Origin: Ruania halotolerans
GTDB lineage: Bacteria; Actinomycetota; Actinomycetes; Actinomycetales; Beutenbergiaceae
Assembly: GCF_021049285.1 (NCBI RefSeq)
Contig: NZ_CP088017.1
Location: forward strand, 1,116,001 to 1,180,000
DNA length: 64,000 nt
Direction: 5' to 3'
In this document: positions 3,338 through 28,422 of the stretch, piece by piece
Position numbering within the stretch: position 1 is the stretch's first letter
How the letters are laid out: each line of letters opens with the position of its first letter
Translations under genes and position numbers: made by a program
The notes under the pieces: model-generated
Databases searched by the model: none
Seen by the model: only the letters and a program-made list of their open reading frames with translations
What the model was told of the DNA's origin: nothing

Positions 3338-4615
3338 GTGACGAGTTCTGGTAGCAGCAACGCGCCCACCAGCACCGATGCGCTCGATCACGCTCCCGAG
3401 ACCGGCGATGAGCAGGGCCCGGATACGGAGGGCAGTAGCTCGAGGTCGGCCGAGCCGGAGCGCGGGCCGCTCGTCCCGGACCCGGACCCGAACTCCCCGG
3501 TCACGCGCACAGTGCGTGGTGCAGCGGCTTGGTCCTGGCGGTTCGTGCTGATCGTCCTCGCTGTCGCTGTGGCAGTCGTGGGGCTCGTGCAGATCAAAAC
3601 CGTCGTCATACCCGTGCTGGTGGCCACATTGGTGGCCTCGTTGCTGATGCCGGCGGTGGACCGGCTGCACCGGCACCGGGTGCCCCGTGCGCTCGCTGCG
3701 ATCCTGGCCCTGTTGGGCGCCGTCGGGGTGGTCGGGGGCCTGCTCACCCTGGTCGGTGCCTCGATCGCGACCGGTATTCGCGACCTCGCGAACACCGCAT
3801 GGGAGGGCATCCAGGAACTACTCTCCTGGCTCAGCACGGGTCCTTTGCAGCTTTCGCGGACTGACATTGACGCCTATGTCACGCAAATTCAGGAATCCCT
3901 GGAGGGCAACGCCCAGCAGATCCTCAATGGCGCCCTCTCGGTGGGGACCTCTGTGGGGCACGTGTTCGCCGGGGCACTGATCGCCCTGTTCTGCCTGTTC
4001 TTCTTTCTCAAAGAAGGCCGCCTCATCTGGAATTGGCTCGTGGGGCTGTTTCCAGCCACCACTCGCGAGCGCGTGGACGGCGCCGGCCAGCGCGGGTGGG
4101 CGAGCCTGAGCAGCTACGCCCGGACTCAACTGCTGGTCGCCCTGATCGACGGCGTCGGCATCGGGCTCGGCGCGTGGATTCTCGGTGTTCCGCTCGCTCT
4201 CCCGCTCGGCGTCCTGGTCTTCGTGGGCTCGTTCATCCCGATCGTCGGTGCGGTGGTGACCGGCTTCATCGCCGTGGTGGTCGCCCTCGTGGACCAGGGT
4301 CCGCTGATCGCGGTGGTGATGCTCGGGGTGGTCCTGCTCGTCCAGCAGGCCGAGAGCAACCTGCTCCAGCCGTTGTTGATGAGCAGGGCCCTCAAGCTAC
4401 ATCCGGTGGCTGTGCTACTCGCCGTCGCCACAGGCACGATCATCGGCGGGGTGGTGGGTGCTCTGTTCGCGGTACCGCTCGTGGCCGTGGCGAACACAGT
4501 CGTGCGGTACCTCACCGGGAGCCCGAACCCGTTCATCGAGGAACGGCCACGGCTCAAGCCCCGGCTCCGGCGCCGCCGAGAGGTGCCCGACAAGACTGCC
4601 ACGGCCGAAACCTGA
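3338..4615 (+). CDS. AI-2E family (PerM/YdiK-type) transporter
   Basis: A 425-residue polytopic membrane protein. A charged Pro/Ser-rich N-terminal tail of about 55 residues precedes the first helices. The body has the AI-2E/UPF0118 pattern: paired N-terminal helices, a soluble amphipathic middle (GIQELLSWLSTG to NGALSVGTSVG), then FFFLKEGRLIW and the C-terminal helices with FIPIVGAVVTG and ESNLLQPLLMSRALKLHP, which is the family hallmark. Members export autoinducer-like molecules or act as Na+/H+ antiporters, so the substrate here is unknown. GTG 3338 is chosen because the strong AAGGAGGG at 3319-3326 fits it; the GTG at 3326 overlaps that site. Confidence 0.9.
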   Translation: MTSSGSSNAPTSTDALDHAPETGDEQGPDTEGSSSRSAEPERGPLVPDPDPNSPVTRTVRGAAAWSWRFVLIVLAVAVAVVGLVQIKTVVIPVLVATLVASLLMPAVDRLHRHRVPRALAAILALLGAVGVVGGLLTLVGASIATGIRDLANTAWEGIQELLSWLSTGPLQLSRTDIDAYVTQIQESLEGNAQQILNGALSVGTSVGHVFAGALIALFCLFFFLKEGRLIWNWLVGLFPATTRERVDGAGQRGWASLSSYARTQLLVALIDGVGIGLGAWILGVPLALPLGVLVFVGSFIPIVGAVVTGFIAVVVALVDQGPLIAVVMLGVVLLVQQAESNLLQPLLMSRALKLHPVAVLLAVATGTIIGGVVGALFAVPLVAVANTVVRYLTGSPNPFIEERPRLKPRLRRRREVPDKTATAET

Positions 4616-24094: not shown

Positions 24095-25180
24095 GTGGCT
24101 CTCACTATCGGTATCGCTGGTCTGCCCAACGTCGGCAAGTCCACCCTGTTCAACGCGCTCACCCGCGCCACCGCTCTTGCGGCGAACTATCCGTTCGCCA
24201 CGATTGAGCCCAATGTGGGTGTGGTCCCGTTGCCGGACGAGCGATTGGGCACCCTGGCGGAGATCTTCTCCAGCGAGAAGATCATCCCTGCCACGGTCTC
24301 CTTCGTCGATATCGCAGGCATCGTCAAGGGCGCGAGCGAGGGGGAAGGACTCGGGAACAAGTTCCTCGCCAACATCCGTGAGGCGGATGCGATCTGCCAG
24401 GTGACCCGTGCGTTCGCCGACCCCGACGTGGTGCACGTGGACGGCAAGGTCTCGCCGAAGGATGACATCGAGACCATCAATACTGAACTGATTCTCGCCG
24501 ATCTGCAGACTCTGGAGAAGGCGTTGCCGCGGCTGGAGAAGGAGGTCCGCGGGAAGAAGACCGAAGCGGCTGTGCTGGACACCGCCAAAGGAGCGATGGC
24601 CCTGCTCGAGGAGGGCACCACGATCGCTGCCGGCGGTGCAGCGGCCGGGCTGGACCCGCAGATCGTGGCGCAGTTCGGGCTGATGACGGCCAAGCCGTTC
24701 ATCTACGTCTTCAACACCGACGATGCTGGTCTTGCGGATGAGGCCATGCAGGCCGAACTGCGCGAGCTCGTGGCGCCCGCGCAGGCGATCTTCCTGGACG
24801 CGAAGTTCGAGGCCGAACTGGTGGAACTGGAGCCGGACGAGGCCGCGGAGATGCTTGCCGAGTCCGGTCAGGCCGAGTCCGGCATGGACCAGCTGGCCCG
24901 GGCCGGCTTCGACACCCTCGGCCTGCAGACGTACCTCACCGCCGGGCCTAAGGAGTCCCGTGCGTGGACCATCGGCAAGGGCTGGACGGCACCCCAGGCG
25001 GCCGGGGTGATCCACACCGACTTCGAACGCGGATTCATCAAGGCCGAGGTGGTCTCCTTCGGTGATCTGGTGGACGCCGGGTCGATGGCCGAGGCGAAGG
25101 CGCGAGGCCGGGTGCGTATCGAAGGTAAGGACTACGTGATGGCTGACGGCGATGTGGTGGAGTTCCGGTTCAACGTGTGA
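24095..25180 (+). CDS. ychF: Redox-regulated ATPase YchF
   Basis: A 361-residue Obg-family P-loop protein. GLPNVGKSTLFNALT is G1, SFVDIAGIVKGASEGEGLGNKFL is the G3 region, and the G4 position reads FNTD instead of NKxD, which explains the ATP preference of YchF over GTP. A coiled-coil insert and the C-terminal TGS domain (TYLTAGPKESRAWTI, ending DGDVVEFRFNV) complete it. YchF binds ribosomes and affects stress responses. Its last 25 bases are partly repeated 3 kb downstream, at the far side of a small accessory island. Confidence 0.96.
   Translation: MALTIGIAGLPNVGKSTLFNALTRATALAANYPFATIEPNVGVVPLPDERLGTLAEIFSSEKIIPATVSFVDIAGIVKGASEGEGLGNKFLANIREADAICQVTRAFADPDVVHVDGKVSPKDDIETINTELILADLQTLEKALPRLEKEVRGKKTEAAVLDTAKGAMALLEEGTTIAAGGAAAGLDPQIVAQFGLMTAKPFIYVFNTDDAGLADEAMQAELRELVAPAQAIFLDAKFEAELVELEPDEAAEMLAESGQAESGMDQLARAGFDTLGLQTYLTAGPKESRAWTIGKGWTAPQAAGVIHTDFERGFIKAEVVSFGDLVDAGSMAEAKARGRVRIEGKDYVMADGDVVEFRFNV
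25156..25178 (+). repeat. 3' end of ychF, left copy of an imperfect direct repeat
   Basis: These 23 bases, ending just before the ychF stop, match 28115-28137 in 21 of 23 positions. The shared reading frame encodes VEFRFN in both copies. A further TGACGG is shared at the same distance upstream. The pair brackets the accessory genes between them. Confidence 0.6.
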
Positions 25181-25200
25181 GGTCCGCCTCGAACCATCGG

Positions 25201-25206
25201 TACCCT
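25201..25206 (+). promoter_or_regulatory. -10 box before the first island gene
   Basis: TACCCT ends 7 nt before GTG 25214. The ATG at 25208 lies too close to the box to be the start of a leaderless transcript. Confidence 0.4.
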
Positions 25207-25213
25207 GATGCAG

Positions 25214-25705
25214 GTGAGCGTCACACAGTTGCTCGAGGAGATCGAGCGGATCAATGGCGACGATCTGGACGCAGCAGCAGAGTTCGGCCCTCTCAAACTT
25301 GGTCCGCGCGGTGTCGTGCTCGAGGAATTGGTGTGCGCTGATCGGCGTACGCGCGTCGTGCCGTCGCCACAGGTTCGGGAGTTCTATGCGTACGCAGCCT
25401 GGTGGGAGCACTGCTCGGTGCAGCTCGAGTGGTGCAACCAGGCGACGATCGAGGAGTTGTACGCTCACAGCCCGGTGCAGGACATGCTCGCTGCCGATTG
25501 TGCGCCGGGGTTCCTGACGACGTCCGGCCTCTCGCCATCGTCGATTGTGCTGTTCGCCATCGACGACCGAGACGCACCGTTCGAACGCGCATACTTCAAC
25601 GTCGACGGAGGTGGGGAACCGCAGGTCGTCTACGCCGGGTCCGAGGTGAGCGTCTTCGATGACCTTGCCGGATACCTGCAGTCGTGGCTTGACAGCTTGA
25701 GCTGA
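25214..25705 (+). CDS. SUKH-like (SMI1/KNR4-fold) protein, possible immunity protein
   Basis: A 163-residue acidic cytosolic protein. The C-terminal half has the pattern of SUKH proteins: a strand and turn IVLFAIDDRD, a second strand pair AYFNVDGGGEPQVVYAG, then VFDDLAGYLQSWLDSL as the closing helix. The N-terminal half is less typical. SUKH proteins often serve as immunity proteins against nuclease or deaminase toxins, and frequently occur as orphans without a toxin. The next two small genes, one also SUKH-like, support this. No toxin gene is nearby. Start GTG 25214 is preferred from the -10 spacing; ATG 25208 is in frame. Confidence 0.6.
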   Translation: MSVTQLLEEIERINGDDLDAAAEFGPLKLGPRGVVLEELVCADRRTRVVPSPQVREFYAYAAWWEHCSVQLEWCNQATIEELYAHSPVQDMLAADCAPGFLTTSGLSPSSIVLFAIDDRDAPFERAYFNVDGGGEPQVVYAGSEVSVFDDLAGYLQSWLDSLS

Positions 25706-25791
25706 CTCTGAGCTGCTCTGGTTCTTGTTCCGACGTCTTTTGCGGACTCGGGAGTCGAGAGTGGCCCTGCGTAGCCTTCCGTCGGGGCAGC

Positions 25792-26130
25792 GTGAGCGAG
25801 ACTGTGAGCATGAAGATGCTTCTCGGCGAGGTGTTGTGGACCGCGGGCGATCTGCCATGGACCCATGCGCTGTATGCCCCCGCGGACCGTCGGTTCGACG
25901 ACGAGTCCTTGCCGGTGTTGGTGTGGGACGTGGACGACGTCGCGGACGACGCCACAGATCTACCATCGGAGGCGAGCGCTCTCGGCTACGAGTACGTGCT
26001 CGGGATCGACGATGTGCAGAGCATCGTCGCCAACGCACGAGCACAGAGGCCGGGAGCGACTACCGCCGACCTCCTCCTCGCATTCCAGCACTATCTCGCC
26101 CGAGATGCGTTCATCGTGTGGGATCGTTGA
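25792..26130 (+). CDS. Small acidic protein, DUF7716-like, in the immunity-like cluster
   Basis: A 112-residue acidic protein. Recognisable features are WTAGDLPWTHALYAP, DVDDVADD, and a C-terminal block VQSIVANARAQRPGATTADLLLAFQHYLARDAFIVW. This block resembles, from memory, the DUF7716 family, whose members lie among polymorphic-toxin immunity genes; this assignment is not certain. GTG 25792, GTG 25804 and ATG 25810 are possible starts. It ends 3 nt before the next SUKH gene, so the two are probably cotranscribed. Confidence 0.55.
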   Translation: MSETVSMKMLLGEVLWTAGDLPWTHALYAPADRRFDDESLPVLVWDVDDVADDATDLPSEASALGYEYVLGIDDVQSIVANARAQRPGATTADLLLAFQHYLARDAFIVWDR

Positions 26131-26133
26131 ACG

Positions 26134-26538
26134 ATGGTGTCGCGAAGCGCGCTGAGCGAGAGGTTCACTCTCTTTCCTCCTGCATCACGCTCCGCCATCG
26201 AGCGTGAAGAGGACGAGTATGGCGGTTCGTTGCCCCGAGAGTACGTGGCGCTGCTTCGAATGTCAGACGGGCTGCACTCCGACGGGAACCTGAGCATCCT
26301 CGGCGCTGAGGGTGTCGTGCGGCGAAACAACGACTACGAGGTGCAGACCTACCTACCGGACTTCTTCATGATCGGCGACGACGGCGGCGGGAACGCGATC
26401 CTGCTGAACCTCAGTGACCGCCGTATCTACGAGGTGGGCATGGGGGTCATGGATGAGGAGAGCCTGGAGCTCAGTGCCGGCTCCCTCGACGAGCTTCTCG
26501 CGCTTGGTACGTGCTTGGCAGAGCGAGGTGGCGGATAA
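26134..26538 (+). CDS. SMI1/KNR4 (SUKH) family protein
   Basis: A 134-residue protein with clear SUKH features in order: an acidic helix (SAIEREEDEYGGSLPREYVALLRMSDGL, the LPxxY..L...DG hallmark, at residues about 19-46), a strand with RNNDYEVQTYLPDFFMIGDDGGGNAILLN, and a final SLDELLALG helix. Such proteins commonly neutralise secreted toxins of competing bacteria or contact-dependent systems. It is unusual in having no toxin, WXG100 or LXG gene nearby. It follows the DUF7716-like gene after 3 nt. Confidence 0.8.
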   Translation: MVSRSALSERFTLFPPASRSAIEREEDEYGGSLPREYVALLRMSDGLHSDGNLSILGAEGVVRRNNDYEVQTYLPDFFMIGDDGGGNAILLNLSDRRIYEVGMGVMDEESLELSAGSLDELLALGTCLAERGGG

Positions 26539-26585
26539 GAGTGGCCCGTGACATGTGACGCGAACGTGTATCGGAGCCTGCGAGG

Positions 26586-26831
26586 ATGGCGATATGGGCG
26601 TTTTTCGACGCGATCACACCCCTCGCGCCCGGCGCTGGCGGGCCGGGTATGGAGGTGGTGATCCACGTTGCCGGTCCGGCGGCTCCGGGACGTTCGGAAC
26701 ACATGCGGGGCACGGGAATCGTCCGCATCGCACGTGTGTCGAAGGAGCGCACCGAGGTGTTCGCGGATGACCGGCTGATCGCGACTTTTGACGACCTGAC
26801 GACCGCTGACGTTTTCGGTACAGAGTGGTAG
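26586..26831 (+). CDS. Hypothetical protein, 81 residues
   Basis: Not recognised. The peptide starts MAIWAFFDAITPLAPG and continues as alternating hydrophobic/polar strands (MEVVIHVAGPA, GIVRIARVSKERTEVFADDRLIATFDDL), consistent with a small beta-sheet protein. Codon use looks coding, with G or C in most third positions. GAGCCT lies 6 nt before the ATG. It belongs to the island after ychF and may be another small effector-binding or immunity-like protein, but nothing in the sequence proves it. Confidence 0.45.
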   Translation: MAIWAFFDAITPLAPGAGGPGMEVVIHVAGPAAPGRSEHMRGTGIVRIARVSKERTEVFADDRLIATFDDLTTADVFGTEW

Positions 26832-26922
26832 CGGGATTCAAGACACGCTCGAGGCCAGCTCCGTATCCGGATGCTGCTCAGGCCGGTGTGTCGCCGAAGT
26901 CCTGTCGCCACGACCCACGGCG

Positions 26923-27036
26923 AGGTTGCTTCGCGACGACCCCGTCCAACGGGAATTCACCGCCGATGACGTCAACGAACTCTGGCCGACAGACATCACT
27001 GAGCCCACGATGAGGAGACGTTGTATCTCCGTCTAG
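26923..27036 (+). pseudogene. Possible 3' remnant of a lost gene
   Basis: A frame without a start codon reads RLLRDDPVQREFTADDVNEL and ends WPTDITEPTMRRRCISV. Its codons have high third-position GC and the peptide looks protein-like, with charged helices, while the upstream part of the frame does not. It overlaps the stop of the oppositely oriented SnoaL-like gene. It may be the end of a truncated gene. Confidence 0.25.
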
Positions 27037-27389
27037 ACCTCGATCGTGAGGCGGGTGATGCCTTGATCGTCGAGTTCGAAGTGGTAGCGCAGCGTGACCG
27101 TGCCGCCCGGGAAGTTGCCGTCTAGCCGGATCTGCACGGTGATGTGCGCGTCGTCTTCCTGGCGCTGTCCGATGCGGGTGCTGGTGTACTCGTACTCGCC
27201 GGAGGCGCGCTCGATCCACTCACCGATCTCGTCGACGCCGCGGTACGTGTTCCCGTCGTCCACGACGGTGGGGGCCAGCGAGAAGCAACTCCGCGCGTCG
27301 TCGTGACGGCCTTCGTCGTGGGCATCGAGGTAGCTGAGCACGGGCGCGGGGAGTTGTGCGGGGTCGTAGGCGGTGAAGTCGTTGGTCAT
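27033..27389 (-). CDS. SnoaL/NTF2-like protein
   Basis: A 118-residue protein of the SnoaL-like NTF2 fold: an N-terminal helix pair (PAPVLSYLDAHDEGRHDDARSC), then APTVVDDGNTYRGVDEIGEWIERA, the typical sheet-plus-helix pocket, and long strands (DDAHITVQIRLDGNFPGG, TLRYHFELDDQGITRLTIEV). Such proteins bind or isomerise small polar compounds, or are polyketide-cyclase-like; the substrate is unknown. ATG 27389 is preceded by AGAAGGA. The sequence in front of the start is a fragment of an SDR gene, so the gene probably uses the promoter of the deleted SDR. Confidence 0.75.
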   Translation of the reverse strand: MTNDFTAYDPAQLPAPVLSYLDAHDEGRHDDARSCFSLAPTVVDDGNTYRGVDEIGEWIERASGEYEYTSTRIGQRQEDDAHITVQIRLDGNFPGGTVTLRYHFELDDQGITRLTIEV

Positions 27390-27422
27390 GGGCTCAGTCC
27401 TTCTGTTCGTTGCGGAGTGGAT

Positions 27423-27527
27423 CGAGAGGACGGGCATGCCCCCATTCCGGAGACGGCGAACCATCGCGGCACCAGTTCCGCGCGCGCCTCCGGTGACGGC
27501 AGCCCGCGGGGCCGGCGAAGATGGCAC
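27423..27527 (-). pseudogene. 5' stub of a short-chain dehydrogenase gene
   Basis: From GTG 27527 the minus strand reads about 35 codons that form a good SDR start: PAPRAAVTGGARGTGAAMVR (the TGxxxGxG cofactor motif) and RRLRNGGMPVLS, after which similarity stops. The remaining 200 or more codons of an SDR are absent, and the frame runs on into the SnoaL-like gene. The stub begins directly beside the HxlR operator, so a regulated SDR was probably removed by deletion. Confidence 0.55.
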
Positions 27528-27534
27528 CGTAGTA

Positions 27535-27575
27535 ACTGCTGATTTAGAAGTAGCAACGACTGCTAGATTAGCAGT
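27535..27575. promoter_or_regulatory. HxlR-type operator in an AT-rich divergent promoter
   Basis: ACTGCTGATTTAG (27535-27547) and CTAGATTAGCAGT (27563-27575) form an inverted repeat with 11 of 13 pairs around a 15-nt centre. AGTAACTG occurs twice as a direct repeat at 27531 and 27573. The region is AT-rich in a GC-rich genome and lies between the SDR stub and the HxlR gene, the usual position for HxlR autoregulation. Confidence 0.55.
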
Positions 27576-27625
27576 AACTGAGGGTGCGTCGTTCGACGCC
27601 TCTGCGACGAGCCGATGGAGGGACT

Positions 27626-28105
27626 GTGTCCGCACACATTCGCGCCGAGGACAGGGAGTGTCCGTTGTCGACGGCGATGTCCTACGTCGGCGAGTGGTGG
27701 ACGATCCTGATCCTCCACGATTGTTTTGACGGCTACACCCGCTTCGATCAGTTCGAGGTGAACATTGGCCTGTCCTCCAGCATGCTTACCTCGCGTCTCA
27801 AAACTCTGGTTGACAGCGGCATTCTGGAGAAGCAGGTCTATCAGGAGCGCCCGGTGCGACACGAGTACGTCCTCACCGACTTCGGCCGATCGCTGCGGCC
27901 GATCCTCGTAGCGATGGCCGCATGGAGGAATGCGCAACTTGCGCCGGAGGACCGGGCGATGATCCTCATCGATTCCGAGACTGGGCTCGAGATCGAGCCC
28001 GAGGTCGTAGACCCCGTGACGGGGCGATGCGCCTCCGATCCGCGCTACGTGTTCACTGCCGGTCCGTCAGCCGGAGAGCAGATGCGCGCACGATACAGGT
28101 CGTGA
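27626..28105 (+). CDS. HxlR family transcriptional regulator
   Basis: A 159-residue winged-helix regulator. The N-terminal Cys in RECPLSTAMSYVGEWWTIL is the conserved HxlR cysteine, often redox- or electrophile-sensing. GYTRFDQFEVNIGLSSSMLTSRLK is the recognition region and RHEYVLTDFGRSLRPIL the wing. HxlR proteins sense quinones, aldehydes or reactive species and usually control a divergently transcribed oxidoreductase. Here only an SDR stub is left opposite it. GTG 27626 has GGAGGG just upstream. A copy of the ychF 3' end begins 10 nt after the stop. Confidence 0.88.
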   Translation: MSAHIRAEDRECPLSTAMSYVGEWWTILILHDCFDGYTRFDQFEVNIGLSSSMLTSRLKTLVDSGILEKQVYQERPVRHEYVLTDFGRSLRPILVAMAAWRNAQLAPEDRAMILIDSETGLEIEPEVVDPVTGRCASDPRYVFTAGPSAGEQMRARYRS

Positions 28106-28114
28106 CGGGCAGCC

Positions 28115-28137
28115 GGTGGAGTTCCGTTTCAACGCGT
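28115..28137 (+). repeat. Right copy of the ychF 3'-end repeat
   Basis: It matches 25156-25178 in 21 of 23 positions; the two differences are CGG/CGT and GTG/GCG in the ychF frame. In that frame the sequence encodes DGQPVEFRFNA, compared with DGDVVEFRFNV at the real end of YchF. Confidence 0.55.
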
Positions 28138-28422
28138 ATCTGACTCCCGCCGCGGATCAACTCTCGCGGGAAGAAGTGTGCGAGGGCGAAATCATCGTTC
28201 AGGTTCAGGTCAGGGTCAGGCATGGCAGCATTGGGCGGCGGTGCGCCAGGCTTCGAGCCGCTATGGCGCCCCACCGCCACGATGACGACCGACCGGCAAG
28301 AATCGTGATGCCGGGACCAAGGCCTGCTGTTCCGAGTACACGCGTAACGTTCAGGCTGGTGTAAGGAAGGCCGAGGCATCGTCCGCCCCTCTGCGGGGCG
28401 ACGGCCAGGAGAGCGCCGAGGA
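28138..28422. other. Stretch without a recognisable gene
   Basis: About 285 bp between the island boundary and the acyltransferase gene. An 82-codon open frame crosses it but has no family features and biased composition. A short imperfect run of CAGGT/CAGGG units lies at about 28198-28220. Nothing else was identified. Confidence 0.5.

Follow-up and report, generated by a model that had tools for sequence, protein, structure and literature searches.

The 3' end of the gene ychF very probably acts as a docking site for cassettes that are stacked and swapped by elements encoding large serine recombinases (LSRs), and the part of the Ruania halotolerans chromosome considered here would be a worn remnant of this process. 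The stretch analysed, hereafter the window, comprises 64,000 nucleotides of contig NZ_CP088017.1 (assembly GCF_021049285.1, positions 1,116,001 to 1,180,000); coordinates below are those of the window. A first-pass annotation, made from the letters alone, had described an accessory island behind ychF that is bounded by a partial copy of the gene's 3' end, and had proposed that foreign DNA entered there and brought its own version of that end. This idea is supported in a larger form, in which the system is widespread and the window appears as one of its decayed members. The gene and the two copies of its end are located as follows:

24095-25180, plus strand: ychF, 361 aa, ending VEFRFNV-stop; the gene end is the candidate docking site (attB-like, B.B').
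25157-25180, plus strand: ychF tail, GTGGAGTTCCGGTTCAACGTGTGA, with the crossover predicted at its first two bases (GT).
28116-28139, plus strand: right half, GTGGAGTTCCGTTTCAACGCGTAT, of the putative decayed distal docking site, with V changed to A and the stop lost; the left half (28090-28115) is not recognisable.

The two ends share a 35-nt direct repeat in the same orientation (25144-25178 and 28103-28137, spacing 2959), in which 28 of 35 positions are identical. Its best-matching part, with 21 of 23 identical positions, joins 25156-25178 to 28115-28137. Copy and spacing are as first described; the stretch, however, does not end before the ychF stop codon but takes in its first base. The translations originally given, DGDVVEFRFNV for YchF and DGQPVEFRFNA downstream, were correct on rereading the sequence. 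Both mismatches had been placed at positions where a diverged ychF allele could differ, which fits the synonymous CGG/CGT pair, whereas GTG/GCG changes V to A. The distal copy lacks the stop codon (TAT instead) and would end FNA rather than FNV. The initial caveat that such a match might recur by chance did not materialise: GTGGAGTTCCGKTTCAACGYGT, a pattern fitting both copies, was searched with up to 3 mismatches through the 4,270,413 bases of the genome and matched the two window places only, with 0 matches for the reversed pattern used as control. Scored with a profile of the 50-bp site described below, 28090-28139 reaches 16.3, second to ychF in the window on both strands, and the next score is -6.2. 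By halves, the right one scores +25.4 and the left one -9.1, compared with a left-half median of 22 among P-type sites; the left-half stretch is now the end of an HxlR gene. The distal copy is read here, from these letters, as a decayed distal site whose inner junctions were lost.

The relatives place this pair in a wider context. A strong ychF match was found in 55 of the 59 genomes searched (partial in G007), the remaining four giving weak matches only, and about 13 kb downstream of ychF were read in 20 genomes of the genus and family. Sites with at most 2 mismatches, ychF included, number 5 in G004, 4 in G003 and G009, 3 in G002, 2 in G005, G006 and G023, and 1 in G001 and most others. A coding-degenerate pattern with the stop matches 22 of 24 family genomes, at ychF ends or within about 15 kb downstream, except in G015 (41 kb downstream). 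Among 396 genomes of the order, a VEFRFNV-stop pattern has at least one match in 344, at least two in 119, at least three in 61 and at least five in 19, with a maximum of 10 in one genome, and the reversed control gave 0 in every row. These counts were transcribed by eye and then tallied; positions are known for part of the genomes, where they are mostly clustered. Across 36 scanned regions the copies lie on one strand, with no opposite-strand copy at up to 2 mismatches. Matches on both strands occur in 10 of the 396 genomes, on different contigs in G078, G169, G242, G354 and G393. A scan of named genomes for the internal type of site gave 83 stretches, and the best 80 were examined: a same-strand ychF end lies upstream within the piece in 31, that or another same-strand site in 58, and an opposite-strand site in 0. 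The genera include Demequina, Arthrobacter, Brevibacterium, Brachybacterium, Kocuria, Microbacterium, Cellulomonas, Intrasporangium, Tessaracoccus, Mycobacterium and Rhodococcus.

At the level of sequence, the relatives show the ychF 3' end to be a recurrent insertion site at which the tail is replaced. To this extent the proposal of foreign DNA entering with its own gene end stands; what differs is the choice of the new copy. According to the half-sites, the downstream copy would be the displaced old ychF end, and the tail now on ychF the replacement. That the window match is an unrelated fragment or a chance similarity, its genes not having been brought in at the ychF site, seems improbable. 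Such a view would account for the left half that is not site-like, the lost stop, the lack of a known empty site and two interval genes with relatives inverted beyond the G004 array, but it has to accommodate the missing third match in 4.27 Mb, at least two pattern matches in five of the seven other same-genus genomes, and two further interval genes with relatives inside the G003 array.

The architecture of the sites was derived from 86 copies outside ychF in 23 regions (two are offset partial duplicates). They have in common a left half, approximately CAGAGGTTGNTCGGCTACGGAACGYG, which is unlike ychF and is followed by a right half coding for the ychF end. Conservation extends from -26 to +23 (about 50 bp) and is low outside. 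Coding constraint was assessed on 75 sites picked by their left half. Among their 316 nucleotide differences, 230 fall within synonymous codons, compared with a fraction of 0.21 for random single substitutions, and 43 of the 75 encode exactly VEFRFNV-stop. A simple reason would be that each right half was, or descends from, a working ychF end. Further tails such as VEFRFS[NTK]-stop or VEFRFAL-stop stand after the same type of left half (oriented positions L040 5916, L044 4514, G274 6810, G227 6418, G320 14313, G015 41096), and several of these are then followed by ACCTCTG or ACATCTG. Several Demequina sites (G312, G374, G050; L057-L059) show a second partial copy like TTCCGGTTCAACCTC 18 bp on, perhaps an extra binding repeat.

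Replacement of the tail can be followed in close pairs of genomes. Before the crossover, G003 and G006 differ at 6 of 300 nt; the figure is 0 of 24 immediately ahead of it and 6 of 24 beyond it. For G017 and G023 the values are 8 of 300, 0 of 24 and 6 of 24. Within arrays, the sites decay with distance from ychF. The rise in amino-acid changes over 19 arrays is reached by 5 of 10,000 permutations, the mean being 0.21 at the first internal site and 1.16 at the last, and ychF-end sites are changed in 0 of 16 cases. For this analysis two ychF-type sites of G156 were removed, sites less than 40 bp apart were merged, and the first site of G104 and of G186 was omitted, though neither is a ychF end. 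Decay in this direction is expected if arrays grow at the ychF side.

Cassettes are also shared between genera, and about half of the shared ones terminate at sites. Matches of at least 250 bp inside arrays were considered, leaving out the window, G015, L034, L036-L038 and same-genus pairs. An end within 30 bp of a site was found in 67 of 128 matches (in both partners in 66), compared with 7.7 ± 2.6 under random placement. G104 and G147 share 3,047 bp at 91.6%, both partners terminating at a site; a HigBA-like cassette of 659 bp (93.5%) is common to G147 and G274; and G156 and G320 share a block of 2,760 bp (93.4%), near which a 458-bp match begins at a site in both.

The recombinase was approached from viral contigs. 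Twelve of these hold the full site pattern, and an LSR gene begins beside the site in five; the protein of L078 matches PF00239 (8e-29) and PF07508 (1.2e-20). A profile built from the five viral-contig LSRs and that of G015, in which the other rows are 40-65% identical to the first, matched 61 of the 396 genomes at 1e-80. The ten strongest LSRs score more than 460 bits and the next 390, G015 itself being part of the profile. For nine of the ten, the distance downstream from ychF is between 43 bp and 14.4 kb; that of G234 lies on another contig, near its end. The gene starts within about 100 bp of a site or ychF end in six, and in G300 it contains an internal stop. In all ten genomes (10/10) the ychF tail is other than FNV-stop, for example VEFRHGGTSGSGAKK-stop. 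A far edge consisting of an FNV-stop end with a non-ychF left half was found in G015 (41 kb), G261 (11.8 kb), G221 (8.3 kb), G222 (11.5 kb, FMFNV-stop) and G269, and the sequences of these five are consistent with distinct attB and attP sites giving hybrid attL and attR. In addition, ACCTCTG or a close form stands at +21 in 11 of 15 non-FNV tails, as against 1 of 43 FNV tails anywhere from +18 to +26 (chance 0.007). With the CAGAGGT arm at -26 it forms a mirror pair centred on the GT at 0/+1, as is typical of serine-integrase attP sites.

LSR genes with resolvase and recombinase domains at an att site thus occur in relatives and viral contigs, and none was found in the window. No integrase was seen in its interval, as first noted: the PF00589 and PF07508 matches of the genome lie at 0.57, 1.97, 2.71 and 3.05 Mb, the last being the one PF07508 match, and ychF lies at 1.14 Mb. 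The genome has no LSR of the ychF-site family at 1e-80. In the arrays of G104 and G147, an N-terminal LSR fragment (about the first 55-77 residues) was found 42 bp from a site, with the placement and orientation that it has in G261 and G221, where the elements are intact. This is evidence that some of the array cassettes, at least, derive from LSR elements by decay. As a source, an intact LSR in every array was also considered and not found; fragments occur in three regions only, G104, G147 and, weakly, G186. The stretch in G186 (oriented 24880-25159, 2.7e-6) is off any listed site; it starts some 40 bp beyond a left half that is site-like but followed by a changed tail.

More distant searches gave less. 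The weaker LSRs had no site nearby at the 20 loci L182-L201. Related LSRs are present in six named Microbacterium phages (40-44% identity), two of which, Percival and Caron, were examined and have no site-like stretch around the LSR gene. Plasmids searched for the LSR at 1e-60 gave no match. A short left-half core retrieved 53 stretches from viral contigs, 52 of them above the low score shown; they were read as chance coding matches, with no LSR nearby as judged by motif.

Movement of the cassettes is most likely driven by serine recombinases, and the half-sites suggest how. The ychF 3' end (attB, B.B') would be the chromosomal docking site of integrative elements that encode an LSR. Their attP (P.P') would consist of P, with the outer CAGAGGT-like arm, and P', with the mirror ACCTCTG and a substitute in-frame YchF tail. 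Integration would leave ychF as B.P' (attL) on the left and P.B' (attR) on the right, an arrangement seen in several genomes, and the host's old ychF end would thereby be displaced to the right edge of the element. Most junctions within arrays appear to be P.B', and most array genomes appear to have B.B' at ychF. An LSR element may excise via its left site and a more distant P.B' site, carrying neighbouring cassettes with it. Once the element had re-integrated elsewhere and had decayed or been lost, cassettes devoid of a recombinase would remain behind ychF. Each round would replace the last ~22 nt of ychF, so that only tails encoding a working YchF end would persist. Such a model would explain the single orientation, the swapping of tails, the missing intact enzymes and the decay away from ychF without invoking an unusual reaction. 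What would remain of this in the window is one worn distal site and a run of small genes spanning about 2.9 kb.

Several observations weigh against this model. Among the FNV-tail arrays read, none contains an intact LSR, and 12 of 32 genomes are without PF07508; the enzyme would therefore have to act in trans or be gone. In the other 20, PF07508 lies within 10 kb of ychF in G015 only. The recombinase negatives cover PF00589, PF07508 and the LSR profile, with PF00239-only resolvases and transposases outside the search. A far-edge P.B' site was not found in the stretches fetched for G155, G116, G300 and G328. With its own pattern, a CAGAGG-like left arm was detected in only 20 of 86 non-ychF sites, against 0 of 33 ychF ends, and the mirror-arm motif was picked after some tails had been seen. 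In the coding test, 13 of 88 left-half hits were dropped for a dissimilar right half, and 64 of the 75 retained overlap a training set obtained with the degenerate right-half pattern. The close pair G017/G020 shows no swap (5 of 300 before the crossover, only 1 of 24 at the tail), and the 55 ychF pairs of the family set together have no tail excess. The cross-genus matches are not independent, as one HigBA-like cassette family supplies many of them. For five of the genomes with matches on both strands, the places of the matches are not listed. The left half in the window is not significant, since 5.5% of positions score equally high. The check originally suggested was an empty site, in which the sequence from 28138 would adjoin ychF; none was encountered in the six of seven same-genus genomes readable across ychF (G001-G006, the ychF match of G007 being partial). 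No circular form was seen.

The serine-recombinase model has two competitors. Tyrosine recombinases, either XerC/XerD or the integrases of visiting phages, could move the cassettes by using CGGAAC-8bp-GTTCCG as an inverted-repeat core. This is unlikely, although that short inverted repeat is present in the site, some viral contigs have a ychF end beside an open reading frame (ORF) of about 250 aa, for which the tested L077 protein matches Phage_integrase (E = 2e-11), and G156 and G186 possess just two PF00589 matches each, in frames of 318-341 aa, the size typical of XerC/XerD. Against it, on contigs that carry an array no PF00589 match came within 100 kb of that array in any of 26 genomes, some arrays stopping at contig ends. 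The left half and the mirror arm accompany LSR genes, LSR fragments lie within arrays, and three of the four contigs with the ~250-aa ORF have a ychF-like left part instead of the left half of the arrays. The L077 match suggests that the ychF end may serve a second class of integrase as well. Phage contigs with a ychF end are L077, L080, L082, L083, L087 and L088; the left part is ychF-like in all but L082, and the site lies near a ~250-aa ORF in L077, L080, L082 and L088.

Homologous recombination via ychF and a distal conserved gene, with the repeated ends as by-products such as partial ychF duplications, is the least probable explanation: it would suit the variable region downstream of ychF in the six same-genus relatives read and two extra ychF-type 3' ends in G156, but not the common non-ychF left half of 86 copies with conservation limited to ~50 bp, the abrupt tail change in close pairs, or the termination of about half of the shared cassettes at sites. 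In G156 (L065-L066), three ychF-type 3' ends lie at oriented positions 3460, 7493 and 21830, the extra two with more than 400 bp of ychF-like sequence, which indicates that larger ychF pieces can occur there too.

Assuming LSR-driven stacking, the closest described system would be the Dehalococcoides ssrA islands, followed by the Enterococcus and staphylococcal cassette chromosomes (ECC and SCC) at rlmH and by the cis-mobilizable elements (CIMEs), and the ychF system appears to work like these. In Dehalococcoides, the islands lie in tandem behind a single-copy essential gene. Repeats of 20 bp, corresponding to the 3' end of that gene, delimit them, a conserved motif of 15 bp lies immediately upstream, and the serine recombinase is CcrB-like; 15 islands have no integration module and, per the authors, might be cis-mobilizable elements (PMC3146451). 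Both systems have tandem units at the 3' end of a conserved gene, a serine recombinase and members lacking the module, and the Dehalococcoides islands differ in their tmRNA gene target, restriction to one genus and 6-gene integration module. The ychF system has a protein-gene target whose last codons are swapped, cassettes down to 0.5 kb with 1-2 genes, and many genera. In SCC/ECC, LSRs target the 3' region of rlmH. The element has an att site on either side, remnants that retain attL and attR are found, and tandem ECCs with several ccr genes were not directly observed (PMC6222049). Insertion by an LSR at the 3' region of a conserved gene would be common to both, and the target differs (rlmH versus ychF); membership in SCC, defined by rlmH insertion through Ccr, does not apply. 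CIMEs are described as decayed elements that retain att sites and can move jointly with a second element occupying their site (PMC5704250). The ychF arrays likewise have att-like sites on both sides and no functional recombinase of their own, one site being decayed in the window; they differ in having up to ten junctions and serine-recombinase-like half-sites, and joint movement would be the proposed route here, hinted at indirectly by the sharing of cassettes across genera.

Integrons combine a single docking site with an array of small cassettes in which toxin-antitoxin genes are frequent and age increases with distance from the dock. The ychF arrays resemble them in small cassettes, the abundance of toxin-antitoxin genes, a single dock and the distal position of the older cassettes, and differ in that the dock is the end of a coding sequence. 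IntI beside the array was not found among the PF00589 matches within 100 kb on the same contig in the 26 genomes; judged by this one defining feature, the ychF system is not an integron. In a pneumococcal study, a prophage upstream of ychF affects the ychF promoter (PMC6375853). No report of a cassette system at the ychF end was found in the literature searched, subscription journals and preprints being outside the search, and prior print is possible.

On a broader scale, the balance tips slightly towards an integron-like exchange system common to many members of the class Actinomycetes. In it, visiting elements would supply the serine recombinases that stack and carry small cassettes, the C-terminus of YchF, a universally conserved ATPase, would be mobile and repeatedly replaced, and mobile DNA would have spread several alternative YchF tails. 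If true, Actinomycetes would have a cassette system comparable to integrons, whose accessory genes could be found by reading behind ychF, and the general question of how small genes lacking a recombinase turn into mobile units would be open to test. Each junction would preserve, as a fossil, the ychF end that its host had when the junction formed. LSRs with predicted attB and attP halves may serve as useful tools, and the differing YchF tails raise the question of whether the tail affects YchF function.

The cargo consists of small genes. ORFs were chosen by a simple composition rule, and gene calls are approximate. The Demequina soli array has nine between-site cassettes of 459 to 1,616 bp with 1-2 ORFs each; in other arrays the site spacing reaches about 10 kb or more. 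Six of ten cassette proteins from four Demequina arrays match Pfam families, namely HTH_3, MFS_1, PIN, HepT-like, DUF7919 and Phd/YefM (the last below the cut-off). The largest ORF cluster across arrays is present in 11 regions, with a HigB-like partner in 6, and presumably represents a HigA-type antitoxin.

Between the two copies in the window, about 2.9 kb are occupied by small genes (SUKH-1, DUF7716, SnoaL-like, HxlR). Three of the six interval proteins pass the Pfam cut-offs (DUF7716, SUKH-1, HxlR), one is weakly SnoaL-like and two have no match:

25208-25705, plus strand: ORF of 165 aa, no Pfam family; 74% similar DNA lies inverted past the last site of G003.
25792-26130, plus strand: ORF of 112 aa, DUF7716; 89% similar DNA lies in the G003 ychF array, between a weak site (3 mismatches) and a good site.
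26134-26538, plus strand: ORF of 134 aa, SMI1_KNR4 (SUKH-1); 82% similar DNA lies in the G003 ychF array, between a good site and the same weak site.
26586-26831, plus strand: ORF of 81 aa, no Pfam family; the G004 relative lies inverted past the last site of its array.
27033-27635, minus strand: ORF, of which 27036-27386 gives a weak SnoaL-like match below the Pfam cut-off.
27584-28105, plus strand: HxlR-type regulator, ending in a stop codon that overlaps the second repeat copy at its left edge; the G004 relative lies inverted past its array.

In the G003 array, the DNA resembling the SUKH-1 and DUF7716 genes of the window is split by the weak site. The SnoaL-like ORF and the HxlR regulator (27033-28105) are divergent and look like a small module of their own.

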